Shown: piece by piece, positions 26,141-38,063 of the stretch | Layout: every line of letters begins with the position of its first letter | How positions within the stretch are numbered: position 1 is the stretch's first letter | NCBI GenBank assembly: GCA_009761415.1 | Contig: QUOL01000004.1 | Coordinates: forward strand, 1,674,001 to 1,738,000 | Direction of reading: 5' to 3' | Source: Sarcomyxa edulis | Lineage: Eukaryota > Basidiomycota > Agaricomycetes > Agaricales > Mycenaceae | Length of the DNA stretch: 64,000 nt | The notes under the pieces: model-generated | What the model was told of the DNA's origin: nothing | What the model saw: only the letters and a program-made list of their open reading frames with translations | The model's database searches: none | Translations under genes and position numbers: made by a program

Positions 26141-27206
26141 GATCGGTGTCTTGAAAGAAGAGAGGGCTGTGGATGATGTGGTTTATGTAGATGAGGGATA
26201 AGTGAGTCAAGAGTTAAACGATATGACAGATACCATCAGTTGTGCGAGAGGGTCGGTATAGAAGGTCACAAGGGATTGATGAATAGGAAGGCGTCCGTAG
26301 AGATATTTCCCACGTTTTGCGACGTTGCGATACTTATGGTATCGTACACATGTAATACACAATATAGGCCTTGAGACCGAAGGGATCGGTATCCGCGTCT
26401 CATTGCTTCGAATTTGAACAATCGTCATGAATAATGAGTCGGAGCTGCGTCTTTTTTGGCTAGGTTAAAGACGGGCGGAGAGATCAGCCTAGTATCTGAG
26501 TTTCGTATGGCTTCTGTCGATGAGACCAACACGTTGACACGGTCGCTGATATTGACCACATGACCCGGCGCGTGCTCAATTTTCGACACTGATATGGACG
26601 CGTATGAGCTTGTCTTTACGGTCGACAATGGACAAGACACACGTACTGTGTTTTTTTTTCACATACTCATCTGTTTATCAAGCACGATATCTGAGTCAGA
26701 TTGATACCTTTCATCTCCTCTTGGGCACAGGTCCGCAAATACTTTTGCGACTCGGGTCCCTATCCACCTCCGAATCTTCTACATCCCTCGGAACACGATG
26801 AGGAATGCATACAGAAGACGCATCATCGGAGCCCGAGAACGCTTCAGCAATGTGCTTGGTCCCCTGCTCGATCATGGATGTCTTGACCCCTTGACCATCG
26901 CCAATTCAATTACTTTGGTCGCGTCATCAACGTACTTCTCCCAGTCGTCTTCTCGTTCGTACTCGGCCTCAGCATTGGGGTTAGAAGATCAAGAGATGAC
27001 TTTCTCCCTTTTCGCGGGATGTTCCGATAGTCAAGCTGGAAGTTCAAGGGACCCGGTGTCATCGCGAGGTCTCTTCAGGACATTCGAAGGAGGAAGTGCA
27101 ATCGAAGTGTCCTCTGATCAGAGTGAATGAACTGACACAACACAAAGGAGGGATAGACAGATGCCTGGGTCACGCGGATCAGTGAAACTTGGGACAGACG
27201 ACACGC
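26141..27206. other. intergenic region with a possible small plus-strand gene
   Basis: This contains the P450 promoter and, further right, open plus-strand segments at 26604-26801 and 26798-27130. The latter gives 110 residues starting MRNAYRRRIIGARERFSNVL, Ser-rich towards the end. An upstream ATG near 26595 (MDAYELVFTVDNGQDTRTVF) could be a first exon. No motif is recognisable, and splicing was not resolved. Confidence 0.25.
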
Positions 27207-27227
27207 ATGTCCGCTGTTGCTTCGAAG
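27207..27227 (+). other. candidate first exon of the FMN-dependent dehydrogenase
   Basis: ATG at 27207 reads MSAVASK and ends on a donor GTACA at 27228 in phase 0. The first recognisable exon right of the transposon starts at 35971, also in phase 0 (PSDYQTEIYT), after an acceptor CTCTAAG. Joining the two gives a sensible N-terminus. If right, the whole nested transposon sits in intron 1. The un-inserted intron would be about 290 bp, long for this genome, so a further small exon may exist. This is inference only. Confidence 0.35.
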
Positions 27228-27473
27228 GTACAATACACAATGTCAGGATGATATTTGTGGCGGACTTCACGGCTTTCAGGCATCAAGACAAAGGAAAATC
27301 AGCTAATACACCAATAGAGGGTAGGTAGGGACACACCTTCGGCGAAGGAACACACTTGTCTCCCTGGTTTGCATTGGAGGCAAGACATTTGCAAAGACGC
27401 CTTTTGTGCGAGTTAAGTGGTGAGTTGGGTGTGCGATATAGTGAGGTCCAGACATCGTGAGGATGGTAGGATA

Positions 27474-27498
27474 CTGGGCATGACCCAGTAACGAGTCA
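27474..27498 (+). repeat. terminal inverted repeat, outer copy, 3' end of element
   Basis: Reads CTGGGCATGACCC then AGTAACGAGTCA, directly after the TA target duplicate. It lies on the side downstream of the transposase gene. Confidence 0.92.
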
Positions 27499-27670
27499 AG
27501 TCACACTCATCTTTTGATAACTTTTCTTTGACTGTAGATAGCGCTACTCTGAAAAGACAGAACCTTTAAGAAATGGGTTTTATTGCATTGTATGTGTAGC
27601 TTCTATTTTTGAGAGTTCAGAGGGGAACAGGATGAATATTTTTCTAAAAAGATTGGGAATTTCGTCTAAG

Positions 27671-27686
27671 GGATAGTAACGAGTCA
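27671..27686 (+). promoter_or_regulatory. subterminal copy of TIR core (outer copy, 3' side)
   Basis: GGATAGTAACGAGTCA lies about 200 bp inside the terminus, in the same orientation as the adjacent TIR. The same 16-mer sits 1 bp inside the opposite terminus (31259-31274). Mirrors are at 35245-35260 and 35884-35899. It is a likely second transposase-binding site. Confidence 0.5.
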
Positions 27687-27752
27687 AGCTTCGGCAAAGC
27701 CCGATCACCACTGTAGGCGCCAGTCTATGAGTGTCGACCTCTGCCTACTCGT

Positions 27753-30172
27753 CTATCTCAGCTGAGGATCAATCTCAAGGTCACCGAAGACTCTTCTTGG
27801 TGCATTACTCTCTGCTCCCAGCTCCTTTTCTGGACCGCCTGGCGCTATGCCTCCCTCAGATTCACCATTTTCGCTGGTCACTGGTGGACTCTTGGCTCTT
27901 CGAGGCAAAGGACGAGGACAAGGACAAGGACGTTTGAGAGGTGGGTTATCGGGGTCTGCAGAGGCAGCTTCTGGAGGGTTATTTTCTTTGGTTGTGGTAA
28001 GCGGGTGTTCCTTCCGCTTCTTCGATGTTCTGACCTTTTCAGCCTGCTTTCGAGCTTTCTCAACCGCCTTTTCCTCATCCTGGATCATCTTCAACCTCGC
28101 TTTCTCAACAGCCTTCGATCTCTGCCTCTCCATCTTCTCCCCATCTGAAATCACCTTTTGCCTCGCCTTCTCTTCCGCCTTCTCTGCTGCTGCGACTTCC
28201 TTTGCCCGTGCCCTCTCTTCTTTCTCCTCGGCCCTCTTCGCATCTGAAATGGCCTTCAATTCAGCCCTCTCCAGTGCTCTCTGTGTCGCCAAACCGTCCT
28301 TCTCCCTCCGTTTCACTTCCTCAGCCTTCCTCTTCCACTCTGATTCGTAAAATGCCTTCATCTGTTGGTAATAAGCATTTGCACGAAGCTCCACATGTGC
28401 GAGAGCAATGGAAGCCTTCCAGTCCACTAGGGCCAATGCATCGAGTGTTTCTCCATCCGTCATATGCCTCGCACCAGCGCCTCCGACTCTCTGCTTCTTC
28501 GGCTTGTTTTTCTTCGCAAACAACTGTTCTCGGAGCCTCTGATTTTCGGCATCCATCAACTGCTTTGAGGCAAAATCGGCCTCAATCTGGGCTTTGGCAT
28601 CCGTTGCCCACTGCTGCAGCCTGTTTGCATGTTCCCGGAATGCGTGTCGCGAGGAATTCGGAGGAATAGGTGGTGGAAAGTTACGGAGGCAATACTCGGA
28701 CTGGGATGACGCGTCGGGTTCTGGTGTGGATCGTCTACTAGCAGGGGGGGATAGTACCAGGTCTGGTGCATCAGGAGAAGATGAAGCAGAGGGACGGACG
28801 GATGAATCGGGGGCTTGAACAAGTTCGAGGAGATGGGACAGAGTTGCGGGGACGGGTTGGGCACTTTGTGTTGTAGTATTCAGAGCTGGGAGGAACGCTT
28901 CATCTTCAATGATGTCTCGGTCAAATGGCCATATTCCTGTAGTGCGAAAGGAGCTTCGGATTGTTGATGGAGTGAAGGCCTTGACGCGTGCCACGGCGTA
29001 GTACTCCAGCAGGTTGTATTTGTTGATTTTAATGAATTTCCTTGCTGCTGCCATAACTTCACCTTTCCATGCTGAAGCTAGGGGCCCGAAAACACCAACA
29101 TCACATGGCTGGCAACGGTGAGTAGTATGGGCAACAAGGCAGACTACGATGATCTTGTTTGCTTCAGCAAATGCACAAAATCGGTATGTGCAGTGCGAGT
29201 TATGACCATCAAGAATGAGAAGTCGGTATCCCCCACTGGTGTTCCGCTTCGCAGTAGCTGGTTCAAAGTCCTTGATGAGCCATTTCAGTCCAAGCTCGTT
29301 GTCAGTCCATCCTTTCGGCGAGAACGAGATGCTGCCCAGAGATTCATAAGTAAGCACTGTGTGCACCTGATGACTCGACATAGAGCTGACCTTGCTTTTG
29401 CAGGGTTCCTCCGCCCCCATTCAAGGTCGCGTGTCTGTCCTTTATAGATGACCGAAGGGTGGAGAGATGTTCCATCAGCGCATACTGTCTCAATAATTGT
29501 GACAAGCTCGCGATTTCCATCCTCAACGTGATAGACAGCTCCCTTTTGATCTCGATCCACTAAAACCATGGTACGTTTTCCAACCCCCATCTGAATGCCT
29601 TTCTCATCCATATTGTAGATATTCTCCGGTGGAATATTATATGTCTTTAGAACGTCCTCTAGCAGGTCGAAGTACTCTGACACCAACGCTCGATTGAGGC
29701 ATTGGGCTCTGCAGCTCTCTAGACCTGTAGTCCATCTTGCATGTAAGTCTGGGTGTCGGACTCGAAAGCCTCTTGCCCAGTTGACAGACACTGCCTCCTC
29801 CACAATGACAGCTGCATACTCAGCAATAGCTTGATATGACAGTGGCACTCCTCTCCGACCCATTGCTTTTATCCAAGCTTTCAAAACTGATTCTTGTGAA
29901 GGACTCAGCTTTTGTTGGGACTGATGTCCTTCAGTACGCGTAGGCCTTCCGTTCCAGCGTGCATTGAGTGCAGATCTACTGACACCATAGTACTTGGCAG
30001 CTGCTCGGATGGATAACGATGGCAATCCTTTTGGAGTAAGGCCGGAATCGAGTACAGCTTGGAGAGCCTCTTGAAGAAGCTCCTCTTTGGCCGCAGAAAT
30101 TGCCGTGGATGACATAGAGCGCACCATTAGTGAGTGGGGAGACGACACAAGAGTGCTAATTGTAGTAATCAA
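27753..30172 (-). CDS. pogo-type transposase, outer copy (spliced)
   Basis: The translated frames match the inner copy residue for residue. Exon 1 is 30172-29391, the 59 nt intron 29390-29332, and exon 2 29331-27753. The coding region is undamaged, but its upstream leader has been moved 4.2 kb away by the inner insertion, so its transcription may now depend on sequences of the inner copy or an internal promoter. DD35D residues and both HTH regions are as in the inner copy. Confidence 0.9.
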
Positions 30173-30455
30173 TATTTATTCCAGGCCCCACAGCGGAGAA
30201 CAGACGCGACGAGTTGGTAATGAGTTCACCAGGGGCATGTTTGTCACTGTTTGGTAGCCAAGTCAAATGCTCAAAAAAGCGTGTTTTCTGGCGTCAATTC
30301 ACATTTTGGATAAGGTTTTATATACCAAGTACGTGTAATATCATGTTCTAAACATACTCTAGGTATCAATTTCTGTTCATTTATGGTCCAAAAATCACAA
30401 TTGCGTCAAACATTTGAGTGACCATTTTTCGTGTGACAGTTCTTGTCACATCGTG

Positions 30456-30479
30456 TTAGGCGCGACGCGTCGCGCCTAA
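30456..30479. repeat. 24 bp perfect palindrome inside transposon (outer copy)
   Basis: The arm TTAGGCGCGACG is followed at once by its reverse complement, with no spacer. It lies between the end of the accessory gene and the transposase gene. The mirror copy is at 32452-32475. Confidence 0.85.
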
Positions 30480-30492
30480 TTAAGCCTCTCCA

Positions 30493-31082
30493 TCAATTCT
30501 CCTCTTTTTTTGCTGTGTTTTCAATCTCGATCTCATCTCCAGATCCCTCAAGATTATGGGTCCGCTTGTTTCCTTCACCGATGCCCCCTTCTCCGTCCGA
30601 TTCCGCACTGTAATCTGCCTCCTCATCAACAGCCTGCTTCCATGCCTCCCTAATCTCAGCAAATAGATGCGACTGGATAGGCTGGTAGATGTGATGACCA
30701 TCCATAAGGGCCTCTAATAGCTCTACCTCATCATCATCTTCTGGACCCCATCTCCGCAACCACCGCATCTGCTCAATAACAGCAGATGAAGGCCATTCCC
30801 TGTTGACCCATGAAGGAGTCGGAGAAGGAGTTTCGAGGCGAGGTAAGTCCGTCAAATCCTCAGAACTATCATTTCTATGATATAACACATATACGTGAGC
30901 GTTGATTTAGATCCTGGGGACACAAGTAGATAGCTAACCTTGAATTGGTAGCAGAGCTGCAATCAGAAGTGTCCGCATCGCAAAAGGAAGGTTGTGTGCT
31001 CGACAGGCTGGGTAGGACTATATTACTTCTGTCAGATAAGTCAAATTCGATTCAATGAGGTGCTCGTACCATTGCTGTTCAT
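30493..31082 (-). CDS. accessory acidic protein of the transposon, outer copy
   Basis: The mirror of the inner-copy gene (exons 31082-31070, 31017-30939 and 30874-30493), with identical translation. The inner element is inserted 150 bp upstream of the ATG, cutting off the native leader. The two accessory genes now point away from each other from the insertion junction. Confidence 0.58.
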
Positions 31083-31232
31083 TGGGAGCTCGTGTTGTGG
31101 GTGAAAGAGACAAAAGACGAGCCAAGGTGCAAAATCCCTGAAGTTTTGTATTCGGCTGGTTTCATCTCCCTAATATATCAAATAAAATAAGGGAAATATA
31201 GGGCAACCTTTCTATATGTCCTCCGATCACTA

Positions 31233-31257
31233 CTGGACATGACCCAGTAACGAGTCA
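31233..31257 (+). repeat. terminal inverted repeat, inner copy, 5' end of element
   Basis: Reads CTGGACATGACCC then AGTAACGAGTCA, directly after the TA. It differs from the other terminus by one base (A for G at position 5). Confidence 0.92.
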
Positions 31258-31258
31258 C

Positions 31259-31274
31259 GGATAGTAACGAGTCA
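31259..31274 (+). promoter_or_regulatory. subterminal copy of TIR core (inner copy, 5' side)
   Basis: GGATAGTAACGAGTCA follows the TIR after one base, in direct orientation, so AGTAACGAGTCA occurs twice within 42 bp at this end. At the other end of the element the two copies are about 170 bp apart, which gives asymmetric ends. Confidence 0.5.
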
Positions 31275-31848
31275 CCGCGCTTTTTCTCTGCCATTTGGCC
31301 TTTTGCACCATTTCTGAGTAGTACAAGAGGTTCATGTACATATAGAGATGCTATAACTAAAGAAGTAGCATAAATCCGGTGCTTTTGAGTCCAACAGAGG
31401 ATGTGCGCGAGGACCTGTTGACGAAAACCGTGAAATATTACCTTTTTGGGTCTCATCCCAACAGTTGTTCATTCCGGGATATGGCTACTTGCACTTCGCT
31501 GCATTATCAGGTGGTATAAACTGCTCAGGAGATGCTAATGCATACTTCCAATATATTGTCCCCCAAAGAAGTGCCTTGCAACGCTCTAGCTACAACAAAT
31601 CCAACATTTTTCCTTTTTGAGATGTGGTCCTCAACATCTTGTCCGTTTCGACTCTAAGATCCTTCGTCAATGCCCGGTATCCAGAATTTATGGTCCTATA
31701 GTGATCGGAGGACATATAGAAAGGTTGCCCTATATTTCCCTTATTTTATTTGATATATTAGGGAGATGAAACCAGCCGAATACAAAACTTCAGGGATTTT
31801 GCACCTTGGCTCGTCTTTTGTCTCTTTCACCCACAACACGAGCTCCCA

Positions 31849-32438
31849 ATGAACAGCAATGGTACGAGCACCTCATTGAATCGAATTTGACTTATCTGAC
31901 AGAAGTAATATAGTCCTACCCAGCCTGTCGAGCACACAACCTTCCTTTTGCGATGCGGACACTTCTGATTGCAGCTCTGCTACCAATTCAAGGTTAGCTA
32001 TCTACTTGTGTCCCCAGGATCTAAATCAACGCTCACGTATATGTGTTATATCATAGAAATGATAGTTCTGAGGATTTGACGGACTTACCTCGCCTCGAAA
32101 CTCCTTCTCCGACTCCTTCATGGGTCAACAGGGAATGGCCTTCATCTGCTGTTATTGAGCAGATGCGGTGGTTGCGGAGATGGGGTCCAGAAGATGATGA
32201 TGAGGTAGAGCTATTAGAGGCCCTTATGGATGGTCATCACATCTACCAGCCTATCCAGTCGCATCTATTTGCTGAGATTAGGGAGGCATGGAAGCAGGCT
32301 GTTGATGAGGAGGCAGATTACAGTGCGGAATCGGACGGAGAAGGGGGCATCGGTGAAGGAAACAAGCGGACCCATAATCTTGAGGGATCTGGAGATGAGA
32401 TCGAGATTGAAAACACAGCAAAAAAAGAGGAGAATTGA
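31849..32438 (+). CDS. accessory acidic protein of the transposon, inner copy
   Basis: A second gene on the transposase strand, upstream of it. The proposed exons are 31849-31861, 31914-31992 and 32057-32438, with introns of 52 and 64 nt (GTACGA...ATATAG and GTTAGC...CATAG). This gives about 157 residues starting MNSNVLPSLSSTQPSFCDAD. If unspliced, an ATG at 32043 alone gives 131 residues. The middle part is helical and tryptophan-rich (SWVNREWPSSAVIEQMRWLR, then RWGPEDDDEVELLEALMDG and HLFAEIREAWKQAVDEEADY). The C-terminus is acidic with a small basic patch. It has no catalytic motif and no family I recognise. Identical preservation in both copies suggests it is a functional part of the element, perhaps a transposase partner; that role is inference. 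Confidence 0.6.
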
Positions 32439-32451
32439 TGGAGAGGCTTAA

Positions 32452-32475
32452 TTAGGCGCGACGCGTCGCGCCTAA
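32452..32475. repeat. 24 bp perfect palindrome inside transposon (inner copy)
   Basis: The same spacerless palindrome as at 30456-30479, 14 bp after the accessory gene stop and about 280 bp before the transposase start. Confidence 0.85.
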
Positions 32476-32480
32476 CACGA

Positions 32481-32499
32481 TGTGACAAGAACTGTCACA
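32481..32499. promoter_or_regulatory. hairpin next to the palindrome (inner copy)
   Basis: TGTGACA, a 5-base loop AGAAC, then TGTCACA: 7 bp arms only 5 bp from the 24 bp palindrome. The mirror is at 30432-30450. The pair sits in the gap between the two transposon genes, where a 3'-end signal or the transposase promoter would be expected. Confidence 0.45.
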
Positions 32500-32758
32500 C
32501 GAAAAATGGTCACTCAAATGTTTGACGCAATTGTGATTTTTGGACCATAAATGAACAGAAATTGATACCTAGAGTATGTTTAGAACATGATATTACACGT
32601 ACTTGGTATATAAAACCTTATCCAAAATGTGAATTGACGCCAGAAAACACGCTTTTTTGAGCATTTGACTTGGCTACCAAACAGTGACAAACATGCCCCT
32701 GGTGAACTCATTACCAACTCGTCGCGTCTGTTCTCCGCTGTGGGGCCTGGAATAAATA

Positions 32759-35178
32759 TTGATTACTACAATTAGCACTCTTGTGTCGTCTCCCCACTCA
32801 CTAATGGTGCGCTCTATGTCATCCACGGCAATTTCTGCGGCCAAAGAGGAGCTTCTTCAAGAGGCTCTCCAAGCTGTACTCGATTCCGGCCTTACTCCAA
32901 AAGGATTGCCATCGTTATCCATCCGAGCAGCTGCCAAGTACTATGGTGTCAGTAGATCTGCACTCAATGCACGCTGGAACGGAAGGCCTACGCGTACTGA
33001 AGGACATCAGTCCCAACAAAAGCTGAGTCCTTCACAAGAATCAGTTTTGAAAGCTTGGATAAAAGCAATGGGTCGGAGAGGAGTGCCACTGTCATATCAA
33101 GCTATTGCTGAGTATGCAGCTGTCATTGTGGAGGAGGCAGTGTCTGTCAACTGGGCAAGAGGCTTTCGAGTCCGACACCCAGACTTACATGCAAGATGGA
33201 CTACAGGTCTAGAGAGCTGCAGAGCCCAATGCCTCAATCGAGCGTTGGTGTCAGAGTACTTCGACCTGCTAGAGGACGTTCTAAAGACATATAATATTCC
33301 ACCGGAGAATATCTACAATATGGATGAGAAAGGCATTCAGATGGGGGTTGGAAAACGTACCATGGTTTTAGTGGATCGAGATCAAAAGGGAGCTGTCTAT
33401 CACGTTGAGGATGGAAATCGCGAGCTTGTCACAATTATTGAGACAGTATGCGCTGATGGAACATCTCTCCACCCTTCGGTCATCTATAAAGGACAGACAC
33501 GCGACCTTGAATGGGGGCGGAGGAACCCTGCAAAAGCAAGGTCAGCTCTATGTCGAGTCATCAGGTGCACACAGTGCTTACTTATGAATCTCTGGGCAGC
33601 ATCTCGTTCTCGCCGAAAGGATGGACTGACAACGAGCTTGGACTGAAATGGCTCATCAAGGACTTTGAACCAGCTACTGCGAAGCGGAACACCAGTGGGG
33701 GATACCGACTTCTCATTCTTGATGGTCATAACTCGCACTGCACATACCGATTTTGTGCATTTGCTGAAGCAAACAAGATCATCGTAGTCTGCCTTGTTGC
33801 CCATACTACTCACCGTTGCCAGCCATGTGATGTTGGTGTTTTCGGGCCCCTAGCTTCAGCATGGAAAGGTGAAGTTATGGCAGCAGCAAGGAAATTCATT
33901 AAAATCAACAAATACAACCTGCTGGAGTACTACGCCGTGGCACGCGTCAAGGCCTTCACTCCATCAACAATCCGAAGCTCCTTTCGCACTACAGGAATAT
34001 GGCCATTTGACCGAGACATCATTGAAGATGAAGCGTTCCTCCCAGCTCTGAATACTACAACACAAAGTGCCCAACCCGTCCCCGCAACTCTGTCCCATCT
34101 CCTCGAACTTGTTCAAGCCCCCGATTCATCCGTCCGTCCCTCTGCTTCATCTTCTCCTGATGCACCAGACCTGGTACTATCCCCCCCTGCTAGTAGACGA
34201 TCCACACCAGAACCCGACGCGTCATCCCAGTCCGAGTATTGCCTCCGTAACTTTCCACCACCTATTCCTCCGAATTCCTCGCGACACGCATTCCGGGAAC
34301 ATGCAAACAGGCTGCAGCAGTGGGCAACGGATGCCAAAGCCCAGATTGAGGCCGATTTTGCCTCAAAGCAGTTGATGGATGCCGAAAATCAGAGGCTCCG
34401 AGAACAGTTGTTTGCGAAGAAAAACAAGCCGAAGAAGCAGAGAGTCGGAGGCGCTGGTGCGAGGCATATGACGGATGGAGAAACACTCGATGCATTGGCC
34501 CTAGTGGACTGGAAGGCTTCCATTGCTCTCGCACATGTGGAGCTTCGTGCAAATGCTTATTACCAACAGATGAAGGCATTTTACGAATCAGAGTGGAAGA
34601 GGAAGGCTGAGGAAGTGAAACGGAGGGAGAAGGACGGTTTGGCGACACAGAGAGCACTGGAGAGGGCTGAATTGAAGGCCATTTCAGATGCGAAGAGGGC
34701 CGAGGAGAAAGAAGAGAGGGCACGGGCAAAGGAAGTCGCAGCAGCAGAGAAGGCGGAAGAGAAGGCGAGGCAAAAGGTGATTTCAGATGGGGAGAAGATG
34801 GAGAGGCAGAGATCGAAGGCTGTTGAGAAAGCGAGGTTGAAGATGATCCAGGATGAGGAAAAGGCGGTTGAGAAAGCTCGAAAGCAGGCTGAAAAGGTCA
34901 GAACATCGAAGAAGCGGAAGGAACACCCGCTTACCACAACCAAAGAAAATAACCCTCCAGAAGCTGCCTCTGCAGACCCCGATAACCCACCTCTCAAACG
35001 TCCTTGTCCTTGTCCTCGTCCTTTGCCTCGAAGAGCCAAGAGTCCACCAGTGACCAGCGAAAATGGTGAATCTGAGGGAGGCATAGCGCCAGGCGGTCCA
35101 GAAAAGGAGCTGGGAGCAGAGAGTAATGCACCAAGAAGAGTCTTCGGTGACCTTGAGATTGATCCTCAGCTGAGATAG
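32759..35178 (+). CDS. pogo-type transposase, inner copy (spliced)
   Basis: The transposase cuts and joins the element ends in the nucleus. Two exons, 32759-33540 and 33600-35178, are joined across a 59 nt intron (GTCAGC...GGGCAG), giving about 786 residues. Unspliced, the first frame ends after 295 residues. The N-terminus has a psq-like helix-turn-helix (LSIRAAAKYYGVSRSALNAR, about 53-72) and a CENPB-type HTH (residues 88-150). The DDE catalytic core shows D189 (NMDEKG), D302 (ILDGHNSH) and D338 (CQPCDVGVFGPL): 35 residues between the last two, so DD35D. The splice restores NPAKASISFSPKGWTDNELG. After residue 480 comes an unusually long Lys/Glu/Ala-rich coiled coil (AKEVAAAEKAEEKAR), then a basic Pro-rich tail. 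The true start may be the internal Met16 or Met20. It is intact. Confidence 0.92.
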
Positions 35179-35432
35179 ACGAGTAGGCAGAGGTCGACAC
35201 TCATAGACTGGCGCCTACAGTGGTGATCGGGCTTTGCCGAAGCTTGACTCGTTACTATCCCTTAGACGAAATTCCCAATCTTTTTAGAAAAATATTCATC
35301 CTGTTCCCCTCTGAACTCTCAAAAATAGAAGCTACACATACAATGCAATAAAACCCATTTCTTAAAGGTTCTGTCTTTTCAGAGTAGCGCTATCTACAGT
35401 CAAAGAAAAGTTATCAAAAGATGAGTGTGACT

Positions 35433-35457
35433 TGACTCGTTACTGGGTCATGCCCAG
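35433..35457 (-). repeat. terminal inverted repeat, inner copy, 3' end of element
   Basis: The complement of the 27474-27498 terminus, followed by TATA, where the first TA is the duplicate and the second belongs to the interrupted outer copy. Confidence 0.92.
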
Positions 35458-35900
35458 TATAGGACCATAAATTCTGGATACCGGGCATTGACGAAGGATC
35501 TTAGAGTCGAAACGGACAAGATGTTGAGGACCACATCTCAAAAAGGAAAAATGTTGGATTTGTTGTAGCTAGAGCGTTGCAAGGCACTTCTTTGGGGGAC
35601 AATATATTGGAAGTATGCATTAGCATCTCCTGAGCAGTTTATACCACCTGATAATGCAGCGAAGTGCAAGTAGCCATATCCCGGAATGAACAACTGTTGG
35701 GATGAGACCCAAAAAGGTAATATTTCACGGTTTTCGTCAACAGGTCCTCGCGCACATCCTCTGTTGGACTCAAAAGCACCGGATTTATGCTACTTCTTTA
35801 GTTATAGCATCTCTATATGTACATGAACCTCTTGTACTACTCAGAAATGGTGCAAAAGGCCAAATGGCAGAGAAAAAGCGCGGTGACTCGTTACTATCCG

Positions 35901-35925
35901 TGACTCGTTACTGGGTCATGTCCAG
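35901..35925 (-). repeat. terminal inverted repeat, outer copy, 5' end of element
   Basis: The complement of the 31233-31257 terminus, followed by the TA at 35926-35927 and then host sequence TGTGTTCACAAC. Confidence 0.92.
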
Positions 35926-35970
35926 TATGTGTTCACAACAAGACAGACCAGTGACAGAAATACCTCTAAG

Positions 35971-38063
35971 CCGTCCGACTACCAGACCGAGATATACACA
36001 AATGGCTTGAAAGGAATCAATCCCCGTTTCACTTTTGATGTCTCACAGTACGTTCCAGTCAACTCGCCATCTTTATGTTGACTCACTGTACTCAGGTGGG
36101 GTCCTCAAGCCAAAAGAATTCTCTCCGCGAACTCATGGGGTAATTTGTCGTGTTGAGTATCAAAAACCCATACAACTCAGTTGATTGTTCTTCGCGTACA
36201 GGTTACGTTCACGGCTCTGCCGGTGCTCGTGAGACAGACGACAACAACCTTGCTGCATTCAGGAAGTGGGGTATCGGCAAGCCACTTCTCAAACAAATTG
36301 AAGCATTGAAATTGAACATGCACCTGTAGTCCCTAATCGCCTCGTTCCTACAAAGAAGCCCGATCTGCGAACATCCATCTTGGGTTTAGACTTGCCTTGT
36401 CCGATTGCGTTGGCACCTGTCGGAGTACGTGACCGCGTCCGCACCTGCTAGAATACTGAACTCACGTCGAATGCCATACAGGTCCTCCAAATTTTCCATG
36501 AATCTAAGGAAATTGGCGCAGCATCCGCTGCAGCAAGTGTCGGCGTACCGTACACCCTCAGTACTGCGTCCGCTACAAGCATTGAAGACGTGGCAAAGGC
36601 GAATGGGCATGTGCATGCCTTTCAGTACCCCTTTATGGTTGCTCACAGTCGACTCACTTATCATACAGGCAAGGCATACGGTTCTATCAGCTGTAAGAGT
36701 CATTATCTGTGTCTCATTCGGATACATTTACGGTTCCCCCAGGTATTGGCCCTTGAACGAACATAACGACATCACTGCCTCACTTTTGAAGCGAGCGAAA
36801 AAGAATGGATATACGGTCTGTCGTCTCTCTTCCGTGGAATATTCACTCGCTCATAAATTTTGTAATTTAGGTTCTTGTAGTAACTCTTGATGTGCGTCTT
36901 TTCGTTTCTTCCTTCAAAATTGTTGTACTCATCAAGTCTGTTAGACCTACATTCTTGGATGGAGACCCGATGATGAGAATCACGGGTACAATGTATGCGT
37001 TTTATTCGTTATCCGCTATTTTTCTTTCGGTTCTAACTACGTCGCACAGCCTTTCCTTAAACCAGACAGCATTGGCGTCGAAATCGGGTTTACTGATCCT
37101 GTCTTCCGTGGTACGAAGTCTACTCAGTTCTCCTCCTTCACTGTTTACTTACCAATTTGACTGCCTTCTATAGCCAAATTCAAGAATGAAACCGGAAAAG
37201 AAATCGAAGAGGATATGGGTGCTGCCGCTGTAGAATGGGCGCATATCGTATTTCCAGGTTCGTTCTGTCATTGCTCTGTTGAGCACATTTTGATTGCAAG
37301 TCCAGGATACTCGCATAGTTGGGAGGACATTGCGTTTCTCAAGCAGCACTGGGATGGTAAGAATCTACGCTGTGCTCCGATCATATCTGATCTTGACCTC
37401 TAATTCCAAAAATATAGGTCCAATCGTCCTCAAAGGCATCCAAACAGTGCGTGATGCCAAGAAAGCCGTCGATGTGGGTGTACAAGGCATCGTCGTGTCC
37501 AACCGTATGCGATTTTCTACACACTTCGCATACAACTCATTGACGTTATGATCGTAAAGACGGAGGAAGACAAGTAGACGGCTGCATCGCTTCTTTAGAC
37601 ATGTTACCTGAGATTGCAGACGCTGTTGGTGATAAACTTGATATTTGTACGTTTGTTCTTGTCTTCCTATTCCGTTCCATTCCTTACGACGACGACATGC
37701 ACCACTCTTTCAGTGTACGACTCTGGAATTAGGAGTGGTGCCGACATAGTCAAGGCTTTGGCTTTAGGTGCAAAGGTTTGTGCCCTGTTCTCGGGCCTCC
37801 TAATTTTGATTCTCTTCTCACCTTTTAATAGGCGTGTCTCATCGGTAGACCATTTGTCTATGGACTGGCTTTCGGAGGCAAAGATGGTGTTGAACATGTC
37901 TTGAAAGGTATGCCATTGTATTTCACATTTGCTGATTATCATTAGTCTGACGAAGTGGATAGCCCTACTAGGGGAATTAGACCTGACATTGCAATTGTCG
38001 GGAATTCCATCGGTGAAGAAGGAACATTTGAACCGGGACTGCTTGAGGAGAACGAACGCGTGA
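35971..38063 (+). CDS. FMN-dependent alpha-hydroxy-acid dehydrogenase / lactate 2-monooxygenase-like (5' exon displaced)
   Basis: A flavoenzyme that oxidises 2-hydroxy acids such as lactate, using FMN in a TIM barrel. Exons from 35971 give PSDYQTEIYTNGLKGINPRF, LDLPCPIALAPVG (36391-36423), ASVGVPYTLSTASATSIEDV (36535-36590), YWPLNEHNDITASLLKRAKK (36742-36803), LGWRPDDENHGYN (36956-36996), PFLKPDSIGVEIGFTDPVF, HSWEDIAFLKQHWDG, PIVLKGIQTVRDAKKAVDVG (37411-37470; the KGI catalytic Lys), IVVSN with GGRQVDG across an intron (37491-37580), YDSGIRSGADIVKALALGA (37718-37774) and GRPFVYGLAFGG. The last exon ends at 38061-38063. About a dozen introns. The frame begins right after an acceptor 43 bp from the transposon, so the start codon lies on the far side (candidate 27207). 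Lactate-monooxygenase-like rather than glycolate oxidase is a guess. Confidence 0.85.

Follow-up and report, generated by a model that had tools for sequence, protein, structure and literature searches.

The window, by which we mean the whole stretch of 64,000 nucleotides analyzed here, lies about 1.7 Mb into contig C34 of an assembly of 35,647,914 bp in 40 contigs, and it contains a 4,225-bp transposon interrupted by a second copy of itself. The outer copy lies on the minus strand and consists of a left part of 3,757 bp (segment B; 27474 to 31230), identical to the reverse complement of the matching part of the inner copy, and a right part of 466 bp (the reverse complement of segment S; 35460 to 35925, minus strand), which the inner copy separates from B. 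Segment B is completed by one TA of the inner duplication (31231 to 31232), and the outer element as a whole therefore comprises 27474 to 31232 plus 35460 to 35925. The inner copy is complete, occupies 4,225 bp on the plus strand (31233 to 35457), and is inverted relative to the outer one. Each copy ends in terminal inverted repeats (TIRs) of 25 bp that match each other with one mismatch, at 27474 to 27498 (plus) and 35901 to 35925 (minus) in the outer copy and at 31233 to 31257 (plus) and 35433 to 35457 (minus) in the inner copy. Both copies are flanked by TA, the outer one at 27472 to 27473 and 35926 to 35927 and the inner one at 31231 to 31232 and 35458 to 35459; each pair is a target duplication, and the target of the inner insertion can be read in the inner copy, where the site is not interrupted.

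A 12-mer, AGTAACGAGTCA, occurs four times per element, never more than about 215 bp away from an end. In all four TIRs, the outermost 15 bp is nearly palindromic with TA on both sides; an example is TA-CTGGGCATGACCCAG-TA, from the left terminus of the outer copy (27474 to 27488). The flanks of the pair (26200 to 27473 and 35928 to 37100) each have one match in the assembly, namely, themselves. About 1.4 kb to the right of the outer element, a frame at 37294 to 37551 matches FMN-dependent dehydrogenase (Pfam FMN_dh).

The two copies are identical. When the outer copy was rebuilt by script (27472 to 31230 joined to 35458 to 35927) and set against the reverse complement of 31231 to 35459, all 4,229 of 4,229 letters were equal, that is, the 4,225 positions of the element (4,225/4,225) plus TA on each side. 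Raw BLAST alignments of the copies contain two mismatches and one gap-plus-mismatch because they overrun the junctions by a few bases, and a self-comparison of the window gave two inverted matches besides the identity line. An earlier, sequence-only reading of this DNA had described the copies as identical, and the mismatch count over 4,225 bp is indeed zero; its figure of 8,452 bp for the outer footprint (27474 to 35925; 2 × 4,225 + 2) was correct on recomputation, and its mirror sums of 62,931 and 67,158 follow from the coordinates.

The uninterrupted target, as read in the inner copy, is GATCAC-TATA-GGACC, and the inner element entered at the first TA, which became duplicated. This entry point, 466 bp in from one terminus of the outer copy, lies upstream of the start of the outer transposase by about 1.1 kb; that much upstream sequence is thus kept before the insertion point, and both transposase genes are still intact, in divergent orientation. 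Chance does not produce an exact 4.2-kb repeat whose four junctions all have TIR and TA. The four correctly oriented TIRs and the two TA duplications are explained by the reverse insertion of a whole element into a copy identical to it, and we found no other reading that explains them. The sequence-only reading had arrived at the same order (B, S, rc(B), rc(S)), with a reversed element at a TATA site of another, TA duplicated at the inner junctions, and an intact outer TA pair, and all of this holds. A simple palindrome or inverted-duplication artifact was considered and judged unlikely, as the junctions fall on TIR ends with TA duplications.

The inner transposase gene, modeled from reading frame, GT..AG borders, and relatives, has a first exon at 32804 to 33540 (plus; HTH_psq, HTH_Tnp_Tc5, and the first catalytic aspartate), a predicted intron of 59 bp at 33541 to 33599 (plus; GT..AG), and a second exon at 33600 to 35178 (plus; DDE_1, the second and third catalytic aspartates, and the stop). 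Removal of the intron yields the run SISFSPKGWTD common to the nearest relative. The outer gene (27753 to 30127, minus; predicted intron at 29332 to 29390) mirrors these coordinates with the sum of 62,931 and is identical to the inner one, and both genes have the same intact frame, as expected from the identical translations reported before. With its predicted start codon and the one intron removed, the protein has 771 aa. It matches DDE_1 with an E value of 1.3e-22 (Pfam), and both HTH_psq and HTH_Tnp_Tc5 score above their curated cutoffs, the latter only just (22.4 versus 22.2 bits). The catalytic residues are D174, D287, and D323, with 35 residues between the last two (DD35D); D174 and D287 do not vary among the ten aligned sequences (10 of 10), of which this is one, and D323 hardly does.

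A search for related proteins found 251. Among the matches listed, the two best relatives show 54% identity over 93% (Mycena alexandri) and 56% over 77% (Leucogyrophana mollusca), and for the matches listed (120 of the 251), identity does not exceed 57% wherever half of the transposase or more is covered. We take the organism-named relatives among the matches listed to be basidiomycetes, except for one from Colletotrichum tabaci. The genome itself is basidiomycete-like; when an ORF of the window was used as a query, the minority of hits that carry an organism name came from basidiomycetes. A PCNA-binding (PIP-like) motif is known for the pogo transposase; one strict pattern did not find such a motif here, and none of the papers listed in a literature search bore on it.

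Upstream of the transposase, each copy carries a perfect 24-bp palindrome, TTAGGCGCGACGCGTCGCGCCTAA (30456 to 30479 in the outer copy and 32452 to 32475 in the inner copy). Its 20-bp core is not matched exactly anywhere else in the genome, and one place on contig C3 matches it with two mismatches. The palindrome includes ACGCGT, known as a cell-cycle box; this hexamer occurs 21 times in the window, and we therefore draw no inference from it. Each copy also has an open frame of 131 aa upstream of the transposase (32043 to 32438, with its mirror at 30493 to 30888), which had no Pfam match at an E value of 1 and may be a second gene, a 5′ exon, or nothing.

Domains, lengths, and the TA duplication together identify the element as a cut-and-paste pogo-type transposon. 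In PMC7386202, the pogo superfamily is given a total length of 1.2 to 5.2 kb and a transposase of 300 to 977 aa, ranges that include the 4,225 bp and 771 aa found here. By the same source, the likeness to the Fot family extends to DDE_1 with DD35D spacing, to the presence of both HTH_psq and HTH_Tnp_Tc5 (either or both being expected), to the size of 4.2 kb and 771 aa, and to the target duplication, which is TA at both insertions, as in FotC and FotD, rather than TAA. The difference lies in the TIRs, which have 25 bp here versus 40 to 60 bp in most Fot elements or about 100 bp, mainly detected in FotC, lengths that are typical and not defining; TIRs of 40 bp or less form Type 1, found in most pogo families (PMC7386202). 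The TIR is short for Fot; the assignment to pogo holds, and that to Fot is likely.

We searched the rest of the assembly with two DNA queries that jointly span the element. The first (31231 to 32730) gave three rows, all three of them 100% matches at this locus; the second (32700 to 35459) gave four, two at this locus (100%) and two of 65 to 66% identity on C6 and C39. The genome-wide search for the element that the sequence-only reading had proposed thus gives 100% matches at this locus alone. A scan with the outer 22 bp of the TIR, allowing three mismatches or fewer, found nine sites (four ends here, two on C10, and three on C23), and the backward control found none. By the two DNA searches and the TIR scan, there is no further full copy in the 35.65-Mb assembly, and by the TIR scan there is no second nested composite; these counts are lower bounds, since repeats collapsed in the assembly or absent from it would escape.

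The five outside ends belong to three diverged relics, one on C10 and two on C23. Two are about 1 kb long with both ends (C10; C23:123417), and the third, with a single end, is interrupted by 16.9 kb of other DNA. They match the element at their ends, and two of the three also match it over one inner stretch of 67 to 109 bp at 71 to 73%; their aligned parts differ among themselves by 4% to 13%. Given their size and the lack of a match to the transposase, they are apparently non-autonomous. In the split relic (L038/L039; G000:C23:2223374-2240967), the first 411 bp is 87% identical to the C10 relic, and the next 247 bp (82%) follows 16.9 kb further on. The intervening DNA begins near CATCAGCAAAC and ends near GTTTGCTGATG, which form 11-bp inverted ends, and includes a gag-like frame, so named by eye; it may be one large DNA element or several insertions stacked together. 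When 330 aa of the transposase served as a protein query, nine rows resulted, two here and seven at 58% identity or less. Distant transposase relatives were seen at L019 (G000:C6:404965-405909; 50%, with one TGA in frame) and at L020 (C39:635811-636794; 58% and 45% in two pieces, without stops).

Zero differences in 4,225 bp set a 95% upper bound of about 0.07% on the divergence of the two copies. The description of both copies as probably very young in the sequence-only reading stands as such an upper bound (<~0.07%, 95%) and falls short as an age, because close inverted repeats may undergo gene conversion, which could maintain the identity of the copies and hide the time elapsed. A very recent nesting event is compatible with the identity, which limits age only loosely and would need a mutation rate to give a date. 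As both transposase frames are intact, it is possible that the element is active at present. The ratio of observed to expected CpG is 0.71 in the element (31233 to 35457) versus 0.91 in the whole window, and CA/TG is higher in the element; this may be a trace of past methylation of the element's lineage. Repeat-induced point mutation (RIP) was rejected: the TA/AT ratio is lower in the element than in the rest of the window (0.64 versus 0.73) and the CA+TG ratio is higher (1.40 versus 1.12), so that there is no RIP mark.

The explanation that we favor, with a probability of roughly 60%, is that one ordinary cut-and-paste event made the nested pair at this locus with a sister or allelic copy as the donor. 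The starting point would have been one Fot/pogo-type element at this locus. While the DNA was replicating or just afterwards, transposase would have cut the element out of one sister chromatid (or would have cut out the allelic copy carried by a partner nucleus or by the homologue), and the freed copy would have gone back in, inverted, at the TATA site that lies 466 bp within the element of the other sister. Whichever chromosome inherited this target would then carry two exact copies, one inside the other. As no third donor is apparent, the simplest source of the inner copy is the sister (or allelic) copy of the outer one, and we infer both this donor and the single event. Either donor would make the copies exactly identical and, once segregation had taken place, would leave the structure observed. 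A single-copy element landing at random would hit its own 4,225-bp target in a 35.65-Mb genome with odds of about 1.2 in 10,000, which favors proximity, although the figure is not a test, as the locus was chosen for its oddness. Excised reversed Ac ends insert into the sister chromatid during replication, according to PMC3744419, and local hopping is described for Sleeping Beauty in PMC3952818. The same paper states that Sleeping Beauty autointegration is not associated with local hopping, and this counts against the explanation that we favor.

Among the other explanations, the one that survives best, which we nonetheless consider unlikely, takes as the donor of the inner copy a third, unlinked one, since lost or situated outside the assembly (in a gap, another nucleus, or another strain). 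The old relics on C10 (one) and C23 (two), which have nearly the same TIR and are 4 to 13% apart, indicate that relatives of the element were mobile in this genome at an earlier time. DNA transposons are lost through excision and drift, which also speaks for such a history. Yet the searches of 35.65 Mb brought up no second full copy, and an extra loss following a recent event would be required. More doubtful still is an origin of the pair elsewhere or in another species, followed by arrival as one 8.45-kb composite by means of the outer TIRs, perhaps through horizontal transfer. This would explain two identical copies in a genome without single ones and agrees with the intact outer ends and their TA duplication, but it requires a mobile composite with a 3.76-kb internal inverted repeat, the TIR scan shows no second composite in the genome, and no close source is apparent, identity being 57% at most among the matches listed (120 of 251) that cover half the transposase or more. 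An inverted chimera arising in assembly or amplification appears highly improbable: two identical inverted 4.2-kb copies are hard to assemble, but one would not expect a chimera to change over precisely where the TIRs end and to show a TA duplication at TATA, and the locus is far inside its contig between single-copy flanks. Suicidal autointegration, in which an excised molecule inserts into itself, is an established outcome for Sleeping Beauty and piggyBac and has been reported for mariner. It can be set aside almost entirely here, and in its simple form is excluded by the two complete copies present, as it turns one molecule into two deletion circles or one inversion circle (PMC3952818).

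The pair is perfect and comprises the only full copies of the family found in the assembly, so that its source can be narrowed unusually well, and it offers a test case for a pogo-type element reinserting into the sister or nearby. A further and considerably bolder proposal, which we rate as rather improbable in its entirety, is that the pair is a self-sufficient natural "double Ds" in a fungus, in which a lone-copy element jumped into its own sister and in one step produced four compatible ends and two working transposase genes, with four units and a possible role as long-TIR origin and silencer. By choice of ends, units of 4,225, 8,452, 7,984, and 4,693 bp are computed that could be released; the 7,984-bp unit would have exact inverted ends of 3,759 bp and the 4,693-bp unit exact inverted ends of 468 bp. 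If the proposal is true, these two are ready-made foldback or long-TIR elements, and self-nesting may be one origin of long-TIR variants, with a one-step route from a short-TIR element. Long-TIR pogo elements (392 to 856 bp) exist in insects (PMC7386202), as does a Bari1 variant with identical long TIRs (PMC4877112). In the literature searched, which included few subscription papers, we recognized no earlier self-nested pogo/Tc1 element in fungi and no precedent for a perfect, fully coding self-nested fungal pogo-type pair without another full copy in the genome.

Two systems of maize invite comparison. Mu killer likewise involves an inverted transposon duplication, and the 3.76-kb inverted repeat here is similar in size to its read-through hairpin RNA of about 4 kb, proposed as a siRNA source in PMC3440606. 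By analogy, RNA reading through both 3.76-kb arms would fold into a hairpin, and the repeat could serve as a Mu killer-like silencer of the element's family. Mu killer differs in that its inverted duplication is partial and is read through from a gene at its flank, whereas both copies are complete here.

The closer parallel is the double Ds of maize, in which one element lies inverted inside an identical copy. The likeness to this member of the hAT superfamily is in the identical inverted nesting with target duplication and in the four ends at one locus. Ac/Ds elements make a target duplication of 8 bp, and their hAT ends and 8-bp duplication contrast with the TA duplication and DDE_1 transposase here, so that the pair shares the arrangement and is not a family member. 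According to PMC3260210, nested Ds elements gain chromosome-breaking properties, are probably selected against, and are thought rare on account of the breakage, and chromosome-breaking double Ds was not detected in B73. A second difference from double Ds is that both copies here encode a full transposase, and the pair, if it works, would need no helper. The kind of arrangement is already known from the double Ds, and the pair described here is a case of it in another superfamily.
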